From NCBI RefSeq assembly GCF_018326265.1, contig NZ_AP023360.1, positions 1,975,501 to 2,039,500 of the forward strand: a DNA stretch of 64,000 nucleotides. The letters run 5' to 3'. Of this stretch, positions 6,228-63,397 are shown one piece after another. The DNA comes from Catellatospora sp. IY07-71. Its GTDB lineage: Bacteria > Actinomycetota > Actinomycetes > Mycobacteriales > Micromonosporaceae. Numbering within the stretch: the stretch's first letter is position 1; each line of letters starts with the position of its first letter. Both the position numbers and the translations under genes were made by a program. The notes beneath the pieces were generated by a model that was not told where the DNA came from, ran no database searches, and saw only the letters and a program-made list of their open reading frames with translations.

Positions 6228-6304
6228 ACGTCGATCTTGCGTGAACTGTGGGTGCGACACGCCCTTTCCGGGCATATCCCTAACAGTTCGCGCAAGATCG
6301 ACGT
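6228..6304. repeat. Long inverted repeat between convergent genes
   Basis: Arms of 22 bases (6228-6249 and 6283-6304) with one mismatch, around a 33-base loop. It lies 11 bases after rsmI and 27 bases before the stop of the leftward gene, so it can act as a two-way terminator. A GATC tetramer is near the outer end of each arm, as in the elements at 30670, 30775, 36128 and 49283. Confidence 0.85.
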
Positions 6305-30735: not shown

Positions 30736-30774
30736 CGAACCGCCCCCACCCACCCGGCCCTGCCACAGCGCATC

Positions 30775-30829
30775 GATCATGAAGTTAGGGCAGCGACACG
30801 CCGTCGAACCCGCCCATAAGTTCATGATC
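30775..30829 (-). repeat. Type A palindromic element, copy 1
   Basis: A 55-base element with GATCATGAA at one end and TTCATGATC at the other. Reversed, it matches the copy at 49283-49358: shared blocks are GATCATGAAGTTAGGG, CGACACGCCGTCGAAC and CATAAGTTCATGATC. A third, partly diverged copy lies within a gene at 63075-63136. Confidence 0.85.
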
Positions 30830-30877
30830 GCCGCAGTGCCGCAGTGCCGCAGTGCCGCAGTGCCGCAGTGCCGCAGT
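30830..30877. repeat. Six perfect tandem copies of GCCGCAGT
   Basis: Six identical 8-bp units without a gap, directly after the type A element. The unit ends of the type A flank (CGCAGTGC in the other copies) look like the seed of this expansion. Confidence 0.95.
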
Positions 30878-30884
30878 GCCGGTT

Positions 30885-46794: not shown

Positions 46795-48435
46795 ATGACC
46801 ACTCAGGTGGCGGGTGCGGGGAGCGAGCGCTCCCCGCACCCGGGGCCGTCCGGGCAGGCCCCCGAACAGCGAAACCCCCGGCGTGGGCAGGGCGGCGAGG
46901 CGGAGAAGATCCGCCGCCGCGAGGTGTCCACCGGCTTCATCGTGTCGCGCATCGCCGTGCTGAGCATCGTCGCCGCACTGCTGATCTACGCGATCCCCCC
47001 GCTGCTCCAGACGGAGTCCTGGACGGCCCTGGGCGTGCTGGGCGCGGTCACCGCGGCCGTCGCCTACCTCTACCTCACCCCGCGCCACGTGCCGGCGAAG
47101 TACCTGGTGCCGGGCACGATCTTCCTGGTCGCGTTCGCCATCGTGCCGATCGTGCTCACCTTCGTCACCGCGTTCACGAACTTCGGCGACGGGCACCGGG
47201 GCACCAAGGAGGAGGCGATCCGGGCCATCGAGACCAGCTCGGTGACCCAGGTGCCGGGCTCCCCGGAGTACTACCTGACCATCGCCGAGCGCGCCGGCTC
47301 GCTGGTGTTCCTGCTGGTGGACCCCACCACCAAGGCGGTGCAGGCGGGCACGGCCGACGGCCTGTCCGCGGTCGACGGGGCCGAGGTGAGCCTCACCGGC
47401 AAGGTGCTGTCCGCGAGCGGCTACACCATCGTGCCCACCGCGCAGGCGGCCGAGCGCGACGCGGAGATCGGCGCGTTCTCGGTGCCCACCGCGGGCGGTG
47501 CGATCAAGGCCACCGGCCTGAGCCGTGCCTTCGAGGGCAAGGCCGACAAGAAGTACGACGCGGCCTGCGACTGCATCGTCAACCCGGCCGGGGACAAGTG
47601 GTTCGCCGACGAGGCCGAGGGCTACTTCATCGACTCGTCCGGCGCGCACCTCGACCAGGGCTGGCAGGTGGGTGTCGGTTTCGCCAACTTCAAGAAGGCG
47701 CTCACCGACCCGACCGTCTCCGGCCACTTCCTGAACGTGCTGATCTGGAACTTCGTGTTCGCGATCAGCTCGGTGGCGACCACGTTCGCGCTGGGCATGA
47801 TCGTGGCGCTGGCGCTGCACCACCCCCGGGTACGCGGCACGAAGATCTACCGGGTGCTGCTGATCCTGCCGTACGCGATGCCGTCGTTCGCCATGCTGCT
47901 GATCTGGCGGGACATGTTCAACACGGACTTCGGCCTGATCAGCAAGCTGTTCGGGGTGCACGACTGGCTCGGCACGCCGACGACGGCCCGGCTCGGGCTG
48001 ATCGTGATCAACCTGTGGATGGGCTTCCCGTACATGTTCCTGGTGATCACGGGTGCGCTGCAGGCCGTGCCGAAGGAGCTGACCGACGCGGCACGCATCG
48101 ACGGCGCCACGCCGTGGGCCGGGTTCCGGCGGGTCACCCTGCCGCTGGTGCTGGTCGCGCTGACGCCGCTGCTGATCTCGTCGTTCGGCTTCAACTTCAA
48201 CAACTTCAACAACATCCGGCTGGTCACCAACGGCGGCCCGTACGCGATCGACAACGCGACCGTGGGCTCCACGGACCTGCTGATCAGCTACACGTACCGG
48301 GTCGCGGGCTTCGACAGCGGGGTGGCCGACTTCGGCTTCGCCGCGGCGATCTCGGTGTTCATCTTCGCGATCGTGGCGACGGTGTCCACCGTGGCGTTCT
48401 GGCGCAGCCGACGGCAGGAGGAGGTGTACTCGTGA
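46795..48435 (+). CDS. malF: Maltose/maltodextrin ABC permease MalF
   Basis: 546-residue permease, longer than most sugar permeases because it keeps the large extracytoplasmic P2-type loop of MalF (about residues 135-290) after two hydrophobic hairpins. The EAA loop that contacts the ATPase is in ELTDAARIDGATPWAGFRRV. The N-terminal 45 residues are charged and disordered. It begins nine bases after malE and overlaps malG by four bases (GTGA). Confidence 0.94.
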   Translation: MTTQVAGAGSERSPHPGPSGQAPEQRNPRRGQGGEAEKIRRREVSTGFIVSRIAVLSIVAALLIYAIPPLLQTESWTALGVLGAVTAAVAYLYLTPRHVPAKYLVPGTIFLVAFAIVPIVLTFVTAFTNFGDGHRGTKEEAIRAIETSSVTQVPGSPEYYLTIAERAGSLVFLLVDPTTKAVQAGTADGLSAVDGAEVSLTGKVLSASGYTIVPTAQAAERDAEIGAFSVPTAGGAIKATGLSRAFEGKADKKYDAACDCIVNPAGDKWFADEAEGYFIDSSGAHLDQGWQVGVGFANFKKALTDPTVSGHFLNVLIWNFVFAISSVATTFALGMIVALALHHPRVRGTKIYRVLLILPYAMPSFAMLLIWRDMFNTDFGLISKLFGVHDWLGTPTTARLGLIVINLWMGFPYMFLVITGALQAVPKELTDAARIDGATPWAGFRRVTLPLVLVALTPLLISSFGFNFNNFNNIRLVTNGGPYAIDNATVGSTDLLISYTYRVAGFDSGVADFGFAAAISVFIFAIVATVSTVAFWRSRRQEEVYS

Positions 48436-49277
48436 GGTACCTCAAGGAGGTCGCCTGGCGGCACGCGGTCGCCCTGGTGGTAACCGCCTTCGCCCTGTTC
48501 CCGATCATGTACGTGGTGTCCGCCGCGCTCAACCCGCTGGGCACGCTCGGCTCCACCGAGCTGCTGCCCACCGGCGCGAGCCTGGACAACTTCGCGGTGC
48601 TGTTCAACGGCCAGCAGCCGTTCGTCAACTGGTTCCTGAACTCGGTGGTCATCGCGCTGTTCTCGGCCTTCGCCGGCCTGCTGATCAGCGTGGCGGCGGC
48701 GTACGCGTTCAGCCGGATGCGCTTCGCCGGCCGCCGGGTGGGTCTGCTGAGCATCCTGCTCATCCAGATGTTCCCGCAGTTCCTGGCGATCGTGGCCATC
48801 TTCATCGTGTTCACCGAGATCACCGAGCTCTACCCGACGTTCGGCTTCAACCAGCCGTGGGGCCTGCTGGTGCTCTACCTCGGCGGCGCGCTGGGCGTGA
48901 ACACGTACCTGATGAAGGGCTTCCTGGACACCGTACCCAAGGAGATCGACGAGTCCGCCACCATGGACGGCGCCTCCCACGTCCAGACCTTCTTCCGCAT
49001 CATCCTGCCGCTGGTCGGCCCGGTCCTCGCGGTCACGGCGATGCTGTCCTTCATCGGCACCATCAACGAGTTCCTCATCGCCAACGTCTTCCTCCGCGAC
49101 ACCGAAGCCAAAACCCTGGCGGTAGGCATGTACGGCATGCTCACCGACAAACGCGACGCCAACTTCGGCCCCTTCGCCGCAGCAACCCTCCTGACGGCCA
49201 TCCCCACCGTCAGCCTGTTCCTGTGGCTCCAGAAGTACATCGTCTCCGGCCTCACCGCCGGCGCCGTCAAGGGCTGA
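48432..49277 (+). CDS. malG: Maltose/maltodextrin ABC permease MalG
   Basis: 281-residue permease with six membrane helices; the EAA loop is in EIDESATMDGASHVQTFFRI, followed by ILPLVGPVLAVTAML. The GTG at 48432 sits in the malF stop (GTGA). No malK ATPase gene follows; in Streptomyces such importers use the shared ATPase MsiK encoded elsewhere, and the same is likely here. A type A palindromic element lies six bases after the stop. Confidence 0.94.
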   Translation: MRYLKEVAWRHAVALVVTAFALFPIMYVVSAALNPLGTLGSTELLPTGASLDNFAVLFNGQQPFVNWFLNSVVIALFSAFAGLLISVAAAYAFSRMRFAGRRVGLLSILLIQMFPQFLAIVAIFIVFTEITELYPTFGFNQPWGLLVLYLGGALGVNTYLMKGFLDTVPKEIDESATMDGASHVQTFFRIILPLVGPVLAVTAMLSFIGTINEFLIANVFLRDTEAKTLAVGMYGMLTDKRDANFGPFAAATLLTAIPTVSLFLWLQKYIVSGLTAGAVKG

Positions 49278-49282
49278 CCCCC

Positions 49283-49358
49283 GCACTGCGTTGATCATGA
49301 ACTTATGGACGTGTTCGACGGCGTGTCGACACCCCTAACTTCATGATCAACGCAGTGC
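49283..49358 (+). repeat. Type A palindromic element, copy 2
   Basis: 76 bases with perfect 19-base outer arms (GCACTGCGTTGATCATGAA) continuing imperfectly inward. It lies between malG and the next GH13 gene, which are on the same strand. It is the most complete copy of type A in the window. Confidence 0.92.
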
Positions 49359-62508: not shown

Positions 62509-63363
62509 TCACGACGGGCGGGGCCGGTACAGGCCGATCCGGACGGACGCGGTGCAGGCCACGGGGCCGGTGGCGTGGGCGCGTTCGTGGAAGGCGTTGG
62601 GGCCCATCGCGATCAGATCCTCAGTCTCGGCCTCGGACAGCGCCAGCGGCCATTCCAGCGCCCGCGCGCCGGCCGGGTCGAAGTCACGCAACTCCTGCGC
62701 GAGGCGGTCCGCCTTGGCGGGGTCGACCGCCAGCAGACCCAGCTGTTCGCGCAGCTCGGCGAGGTGGCGCCCGGTCGGGGTGACCACGATCAGCAGCCCG
62801 TCCGGCCGCAGCACCCGGTGCATCTGCGCGCCGTTGCGCGGCGCGAACACGTTCAGCAGCAGGTCCACGCTGCCGTCGGCGAGCGGCAGGGTGCCCCAGG
62901 TGTCCGCGAGCACCGCCCCCGCCCGGGGATGCGCCTTCGCGGCCCTGCGCAGCGCCGCCTTGCTCACGTCGAACGCCAGCCCCTCCGCCGCCGGCACCCC
63001 CTCCAGCACCTGCGCCAGGTAATACCCCGTCCCCGCCCCCAGATCCACCAGCAGCGGCCCCCCTCCGGACTGTCGATCACGGTCCCGGGGTGGTGACACG
63101 CCGTCGACCACGTCCACAAGTTCATGATCAACGCAGATGGCGGTGAGGGCGGTGGCGAGGGGGTGGTAGTGGGCGGTGGTGAGGAAGCGGGTGCGGGCCT
63201 CGACCATGGCGGGGGTGTCGCCTTCGGGCAGTCGGCGACCGGTGCCGAGGGTGACGTAGCCGTGCCGGTTGAGGTCGAAGGTGTGGTTGCGCGGGCAGCG
63301 GAGGGTGGCGTCGGTTCGCGTGAGCGGCGACGCGCAGAGGGGGCAGCGCAGTGCGTCAATCAT
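62509..63363 (-). CDS. RlmA-like 23S rRNA guanine N1-methyltransferase with palindrome-encoded insert
   Basis: 284 residues of the RlmA(I)/TlrB type, which methylate G745 or G748 of 23S rRNA (the latter gives tylosin resistance). An N-terminal zinc knuckle (CPLC...CPRNHTFD) leads to the methyltransferase fold with motif [14 protein letters not shown]. Between the N-terminal part and motif I there is an insert of about 21 residues ([11 protein letters not shown]...) encoded by a type A palindromic element at 63075-63136, in frame and without a stop. ATG 63363 puts the zinc finger near the start; GTG 63378 is an alternative. Confidence 0.88.
63075..63136 (-). repeat. Type A palindromic element, copy 3, inside a coding sequence
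   Basis: Shares with copies 1 and 2 the blocks GACACGCCGTCGA, CACGTCCA-AAG and TTCATGATCAACGCAG; the other arm has diverged. It lies inside the RlmA-like gene and is translated. Confidence 0.85.
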
Positions 63364-63397
63364 GGCGGCGGTGAGCACACGGAATATCTTGGTGCAT

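Follow-up and report, generated by a model that had tools for sequence, protein, structure and literature searches.

The RlmA-like methyltransferase gene near the end of the DNA stretch analysed here (the window, 64,000 nucleotides from Catellatospora sp. IY07-71, an 8.6-Mb single-contig genome labelled G000) raises the question of how a palindromic repeat came to be translated within an rRNA methyltransferase, and whether repeats of this kind move or change in place. The initial annotation had read positions 63075-63136 as a repeat copy in frame within this gene, with two non-coding copies elsewhere in the window. Both statements were borne out. The translated copy occupies 63072-63132 (61 bp), lies entirely within the gene and is translated in frame with no internal stop, and the other two copies fall outside called genes. 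The features concerned are the following:

62509 to 63378, minus strand: RlmA-like 23S rRNA (guanine-N1) methyltransferase gene bearing the insert (Pfam Zn_ribbon_RlmA, 48.3 bits; Methyltransf_25, 35.6 bits; E. coli RlmA, 1p91)
63072 to 63132, minus strand: 61-bp element of subtype 0 (see below), translated in the RlmA-like gene as codons 83-102 (aligned with 37 other genomic copies; model match of 70.6 bits, E 8.4e-19)
49290 to 49351, plus strand: non-coding copy of subtype 1, a full palindrome, 12 nt behind the called gene 48432-49277 (RNA fold of -27.2 kcal/mol, z -4.94)
30773 to 30829, minus strand: non-coding copy whose right arm is palindromic; an 8-bp tandem repeat adjoins it (model match and gene calls)

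The host gene has 289 codons and encodes a zinc ribbon and a methyltransferase domain (PF21302, PF13649 and PF08241, all above the cut-offs), so that both features expected of an RlmA member, the zinc ribbon (PF21302) and the SAM-binding domain (PF13649), are present. The best NCBIfam models (MyrA, Erm(32), ChrB and RlmA) all score far under their curated cut-offs. By this protein, the nearest named relatives found are Catellatospora, with C. bangladeshensis at 91%. E. coli RlmA (1p91) aligns with it at E 4.4e-32 and leaves a 17-residue gap facing residues 83-99; the insert is placed after the zinc-ribbon part and ahead of SAM motif I. In an AlphaFold2 model based on 12 sequences (mean pLDDT 84.6), residues 89-97 and 99-105 fall below a pLDDT of 50 and are flanked by well-modelled parts, and the insert appears to occupy a linker that the model renders as a disordered loop.

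A sequence-only model search of the genome located the family at 95 places at E <1e-6, and 14 bases of the arm gave 132 genome matches with at most one mismatch, versus 1 for the reversed control pattern; hence, the repeat is not due to chance. When 38 copies were aligned, they gave, free of gaps, the consensus GTTGATCATGAACTTATGGACGTGTTCGACGGCGTGTCnCnACCCCGGCACCGTGATCAAC, a 61-bp sequence that starts with GTTG and finishes with CAAC, 29 of its 61 columns being invariant. Of the 121 genomes sampled from the bacterial family, 46 had a match at E up to 0.01, and at least 20 matches each were found in all eight sampled Catellatospora and in members of five other genera (g19, g23, g27, g31 and g39). 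The chromosomal spread in G000 is uneven, with 27 of 91 copies at 2-3 Mb and one at 6-7 Mb. The 8-bp tandem repeat adjoining the 30.8-kb copy (GCCGCAGT, window 30830-30880) stands at the same place in G001, the nearest genome compared. Within the window, Rfam at gathering scores returned only two tRNAs.

To describe sequence variation, 252 copies were clustered by K-modes with k chosen as 3 (91 of the 95 from G000, 93 from G001, 53 of about 90 from G005 and 15 of 24 from G004). Subtype 0 (97 copies) has the right end CACCGTGATCAAC, subtype 1 (68 copies) is characterized by TAACTTCATGATCGAC, and subtype 2 (87 copies) carries CACGG in the left half and GTGGCCACAACTTCATGATC on the right. G000 is dominated by subtype 0 (55/91) and G005 by subtype 2 (41/53), with a split of 32/26/35 for subtypes 0/1/2 in G001. 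The initial annotation had explained the weaker arm of the RlmA copy as divergence after insertion into a gene under selection. This turned out to be wrong: the copy belongs to subtype 0, and its right end, CCGGGACCGTGATCGAC, is the standard one for this commonest subtype in G000, and therefore is not a decayed palindrome. Both window copies used for comparison carry the alternative right arm, which is fully palindromic. As RNA, stable folds were predicted for three copies of subtypes 1 and 2 (z -2.9, -4.2 and -4.9), but only weak ones for four pieces of subtype 0 (z -0.7, -0.5, -1.9 and -0.9, the last being an 81-nt piece of G008). No compensatory pairs were detected in the consensus fold of 38 copies.

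The family is mainly found at gene ends. As the initial annotation had proposed, coding and non-coding copies were listed: of the 91 copies examined in G000, 90 are intergenic and the RlmA copy is the sole intragenic one, with gene positions taken from a simple codon-usage gene caller. In 68 of the 91, the copy lies behind a same-strand stop codon at a median distance of 22 nt (63/68 within 60 nt), and for another 22 the upstream gene is on the opposite strand. The gene end overlaps the element in nine of the 68, mostly through a TGA at element positions 3-5. G001 has two intragenic copies out of 93, RlmA and one that is merely at the 3' end of a gene, and G005 has one out of 46 examined (RlmA). 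As a separate observation, neighbouring copies less than 2 kb apart are convergent in 19/19 cases in G000, 19/19 in G001, 14/14 in G005 and 15/16 in G008; the spacings suggest that many are the same pairs across genomes, so these 67 of 68 pairs are not independent. The convergence holds even across a whole intervening gene, and same-direction close neighbours are all but missing. A composite mobile element with the copies as terminal repeats was considered and rejected, since the three wide pairs examined enclose differing ordinary genes (one dapB-like by translation), and similarly spaced pairs are found in G001.

The distribution of the insert was then read from aligned RlmA-like proteins. 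It is present in 11/11 Catellatospora genomes, all of which keep the reading frame open and carry VDHEL or an altered form (ADHER in G004), versus 0/23 homologues from other genera, a comparison that the initial annotation had proposed. Neither Rhizocola hellebori nor the 22 proteins of other genomes of the family has it, and the linkers there vary in length; these 22 were the best-scoring loci outside the genus (107 of the 121 genomes had a match, eight of the 107 being Catellatospora). Given this absence from all 23, the translated repeat copy can be regarded as an insert. By parsimony, one copy would have entered a variable linker of the methyltransferase before the 11 sampled Catellatospora split. 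In G003, G004 and G006, the linker is lengthened right after the element by coding sequence that differs among the three.

Since the left junction of the insert differs by 4-5 residues in G007, G008 and G009 (clade 3), a second, parallel insertion into the same permissive linker, separate from that in clades 1 and 2, also has to be considered. Clade 3 is set apart in the RlmA tree, and the elements of G000 and clade 3 are 83-88% alike, with the remaining gene only 69-71% alike. However, linker, orientation and frame are identical across all 11 genomes, and the high element identity could be explained by overwriting in place with no second insertion. We therefore regard two independent insertions as rather doubtful and keep to the single entry.

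Whether the copies move was addressed by comparing their sites between species, using a loose test (flank matches) and a strict one (both flanks mapping to one place). The compared stretches were picked around copies in each genome, and thus truly empty sites are under-sampled in all the counts below. The loose test gave a G001 counterpart for 83 of the 91 G000 copies, on 80 distinct G001 copies; four had a flank match but no counterpart and four had no flank match. Because 83 matches fall on 80 copies, at most about 11/91 copies can lack a G001 counterpart by this test; for the same reason, and with one flank match only 74% identical, some loose matches are doubtful, and the strict count was used for the subtypes. 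By the strict test, 70 of 91 were placeable in G001 stretches, 68 in the same orientation and two inverted, and 21 could not be judged. One inverted case is the second member of the G000 pair 1026419/1026504, which faces a single G001 copy and is therefore a presence difference. A fully palindromic copy was also seen inverted at the same site (G000 326342 versus G001 C27:108407). In the reverse direction, 69 of 93 G001 copies were placed in G000 (67 in the same orientation, one copyless, one inverted). Most copies thus keep their sites between species. The initial annotation had suggested that the repeat moves at least occasionally; this stands for the one entry into RlmA, while recent movement finds little support, given the genus-wide insert and the 83/91 (loose) or 68/91 (strict) G000 copies with same-orientation counterparts in G001. 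The differences between species concern mainly the sequence carried at a given site.

From more distant genomes, 37 of 53 G005 copies were placed strictly in G000 (29 in the same orientation, three inverted, five without a copy), as were 11 of 15 from G004 (nine, one and one, respectively). A looser G005 comparison gave 43/67 shared and 16/67 mapping to G000 places without a copy, some counted twice. The six strict copyless cases correspond to five places in G000, each of which holds something else:

2714279: diverged relative that has kept identical outer arms (hit from both G005 and G004)
418686: copy of a second palindrome family, where the strict comparison lacked a 61-bp copy
4287250: different hairpin, where the strict comparison lacked a 61-bp copy
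8236095 (L259): 61-bp element interrupted by a different palindrome, as if a hairpin had inserted into a hairpin
1028386 (L230): only GCTGATCAAC, as if a palindrome had been reduced to its arms by collapse, opposite a G005 element (L271:18364)

The second palindrome family is also represented in the window:

6230 to 6302, minus strand: copy of the second palindrome family, 73 bp, with the common GGCGTGTC core (arm search, gene-end comparison)

Its arm, GTCGATCTTGCGCGAA, had 207 matches in G000 at up to two mismatches, versus 2 for the reversed control, and in 19 copies, 3 of 19 predicted pairs showed changes on both sides. This family occupies two G000 gene ends (near 418.7 kb and 2722.8 kb) where G005 carries the 61-bp element.

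At the shared sites, discrete changes of subtype were found while the flanking genes stay orthologous. Between G000 and G001, 22 of the 68 same-orientation sites differ in subtype by the strict test (0 to 2 in 18, 1 to 2 in two, 2 to 0 in one and 0 to 1 in one; by the loose count, 24 of 83 shared sites are switched). Flank identity is 94.7% at the switched sites versus 95.0% over all 68, and the element itself shows 16.5 differences per 61 bp at switched versus 3.2 at unswitched sites. In simulations of random substitution of the G000 copies, a mean of 2.25 and a maximum of 7/68 copies were relabelled at 20% (1000 runs), and a maximum of 12/68 at 30%. Beside the element, switched copies also show alterations in the adjoining 20 nt on the right (identity of 0.49-0.69 versus 0.77-0.88 at unswitched sites), with the left spacer less affected (0.67-0.86 versus 0.78-0.82).

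In G005, subtype differs at 26 of the 29 sites shared with G000. Identity at these 29 sites is 0.747 across species versus 0.846 within G005 and 0.843 within G000, and copies that resemble their own genome more than their orthologues indicate concerted evolution. For G000 versus G001, orthologues (0.882 over the 83 loosely matched sites) still exceed paralogues (0.799 and 0.784), and likewise for G000 versus G004 (0.839 over 11 sites versus 0.793 within G004), so that homogenization is visible only in the comparison with G005. At 11 sites, both G001 and G005 carry subtype 2; there, orthologues differ by a mean of 6.55 and only 22 of 20000 re-pairings were as close. As re-pairing so rarely reaches the closeness of the true orthologues, subtype 2 was probably the earlier state at these sites and G000 would have been overwritten by subtype 0.

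The same kind of exchange appears to have reached the coding copy. The RlmA element is nearest to subtype 2 in G002, G003, G005 and G010, and nearest to subtype 0 in the other seven genomes. Immediately left of the element, G005 and G006 agree at 97% over 60 bp (and at 82-98% across the four windows farther left), compared with 72% within it, and G006 has about 80 bp extra after the element before identity with G005 resumes. In a tree of the RlmA region, with the linker removed and G000 left out, G006 groups with G005 and G002 (support of 99), and a constraint placing the four subtype-2 genomes in one group was disfavoured (AU p 0.013; an initial tree with G000, which had an unaligned flank and a long branch, gave 0.012). 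As judged from these alignments, one exchange within RlmA is well supported and two are likely; only one receives the higher grade, since the tree has weak nodes (39 and 53) inside clade 2.

Taken as a whole, we consider it reasonably probable that the element represents a REP-like family of gene ends that evolves in concert, probably through ectopic gene conversion, and of which one member is embedded in a protein. Gene conversion between dispersed copies would be the simplest cause of the in-place differences in subtype: the near-invariant left 19 bp would anneal, the rest would be copied from another genomic copy, and the copied tract would end raggedly on the right. The shared left stretch available to start such an exchange is only about 19 bp. 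The altered right flanks would not be predicted by plain conversion bounded by homology and would fit either one-sided, ragged copying or re-insertion. The usual job of the element may be that of a transcribed 3' hairpin, acting as a terminator or protecting the mRNA end, as suggested by its place and by the folding of the three subtype 1 and 2 copies. Weighing against the account as a whole are the weak RNA folds of subtype 0, the missing compensatory pairs, the 22 copies with no same-strand gene upstream, and the closer likeness of orthologues than of paralogues for G000 with G001 and with G004. Within RlmA, the element would have no gene-end job and may simply be tolerated as a disordered loop.

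Those altered right flanks would also suit a miniature transposon (REPIN- or MITE-like) that is still active, leaving and re-entering the genome at preferred gene ends; a change of subtype would then represent loss plus fresh insertion, and RlmA would be a stray target. The inverted pairs resemble those of REPINs, the original RlmA insertion itself speaks for this view, and presence differences do exist: the pair 1026419/1026504 against one G001 copy, GCTGATCAAC alone at 1028386 against a G005 copy, and the 16/67 G005 matches, some double-counted, at copyless G000 places. Yet repeated excision and return would be expected to produce more empty sites than were seen, as at most about a tenth of the copies lack a G001 counterpart while 22/68 have switched, a comparison in which empty sites are under-sampled. 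Moreover, the only Y1 transposase match in the genome adjoins a TnpB-like gene (by translation) and looks like an IS605 TnpA rather than a RAYT, and an RVT_1 search gave no match, so a RAYT or a reverse transcriptase was rejected as the driver. We regard excision and re-insertion as an unlikely account of the switching. Less probable still would be the homologous import of small DNA pieces from species with another subtype at the same site. Compatible with import are the 11 sites with subtype 2 in both G001 and G005, where the two resemble each other more than re-paired copies do, but this closeness is equally explained by shared ancestry, and the flanks of switched sites, nearly as similar as those over all 68, show no broad imported tract. 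Conversion between dispersed copies is thus the reading we retain.

The uniformity of REPs, and whether gene conversion or transposition produces it, is an old question; the title of a 1988 study by Higgins, McLaren and Newbury reportedly asks whether gene conversion is the cause. Here, gene conversion is suggested by a comparison of orthologous sites, in which the same gene ends are examined between species. As far as the available parts of the sources go, REPs lie behind genes, in pairs, supplying stops, and occur also inside genes, perhaps in linkers (PMC3733652), and REPINs are treated in PMC3116915. The Catellatospora element resembles the REP, BIME and REPIN types outlined there in being (near-)palindromic and in high copy number, close behind 3' ends and between convergent or same-direction genes, in sometimes supplying the stop codon, in often forming inverted pairs and in occurring intragenically, as REPs do in several species (PMC3733652, PMC3116915). 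Of the features used to recognize REPs and REPINs, high copy number, a mainly extragenic location and inverted pairs were found, and the tag, the size and a RAYT were not; hairpin folding was good in the copies of subtypes 1 and 2 and weak in those of subtype 0. In contrast to REPs, which, in the material available, measure 20-40 bp and bear a GTAG or CGTC tag, the element spans 61 bp, ends in GTTG/CAAC and has neither tag; no RAYT was found with it, and most of its sites are common to species while subtypes exchange in place.

The initial annotation had also pointed to the protein-embedded palindromic elements of Rickettsia, of which, in the accessible text, many copies lie in frame within genes (PMC10969869). 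The likeness stands for the RlmA locus alone, where a palindromic repeat is translated in frame in an ordinary gene (PMC10969869, PMC3733652). It fails at the level of the family: recurrent insertion into many unrelated genes, the Rickettsia trait, was not found, as intragenic copies number 1/91 in G000, 2/93 in G001 and 1/46 in G005, so that RlmA is an exception in a gene-end family. In addition, the element is 61 bp and not about 150 bp, as given for Rickettsia in the portions available, and the embedded copy belongs to the less palindromic subtype. REP-like inserts that are translated are already a known phenomenon. For intragenic REPs in flexible linkers or loops, tolerated insertion is likewise suggested in the available part of PMC3733652; unlike those, as described there, the RlmA copy is present in 11/11 genomes of the genus and has changed subtype inside an open reading frame. 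Available parts of PMC8049555, PMC2267715, PMC12306157 and PMC5765111 were drawn on as well. Among the literature matches listed, we found no account of such repeats in Micromonosporaceae and none of in-place subtype switching at shared sites, coding copy included.

A bolder reading, to which we give only a small chance, would be that Catellatospora has a process independent of the known REP transposases, anchored on the constant left arm of the hairpin, that overwrites dispersed copies with one favoured subtype. If true, a sweep inside the genome would also rewrite part of a protein-coding gene with the frame unbroken. In either case, with 68 shared sites, about a third of which (22) are switched while the neighbouring genes are unchanged, the question of conversion versus transposition can be put to the test at each individual site in a free-living bacterium. 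As the RlmA copy indicates, overwriting can reach coding sequence and alter many of some 20 residues in one step.
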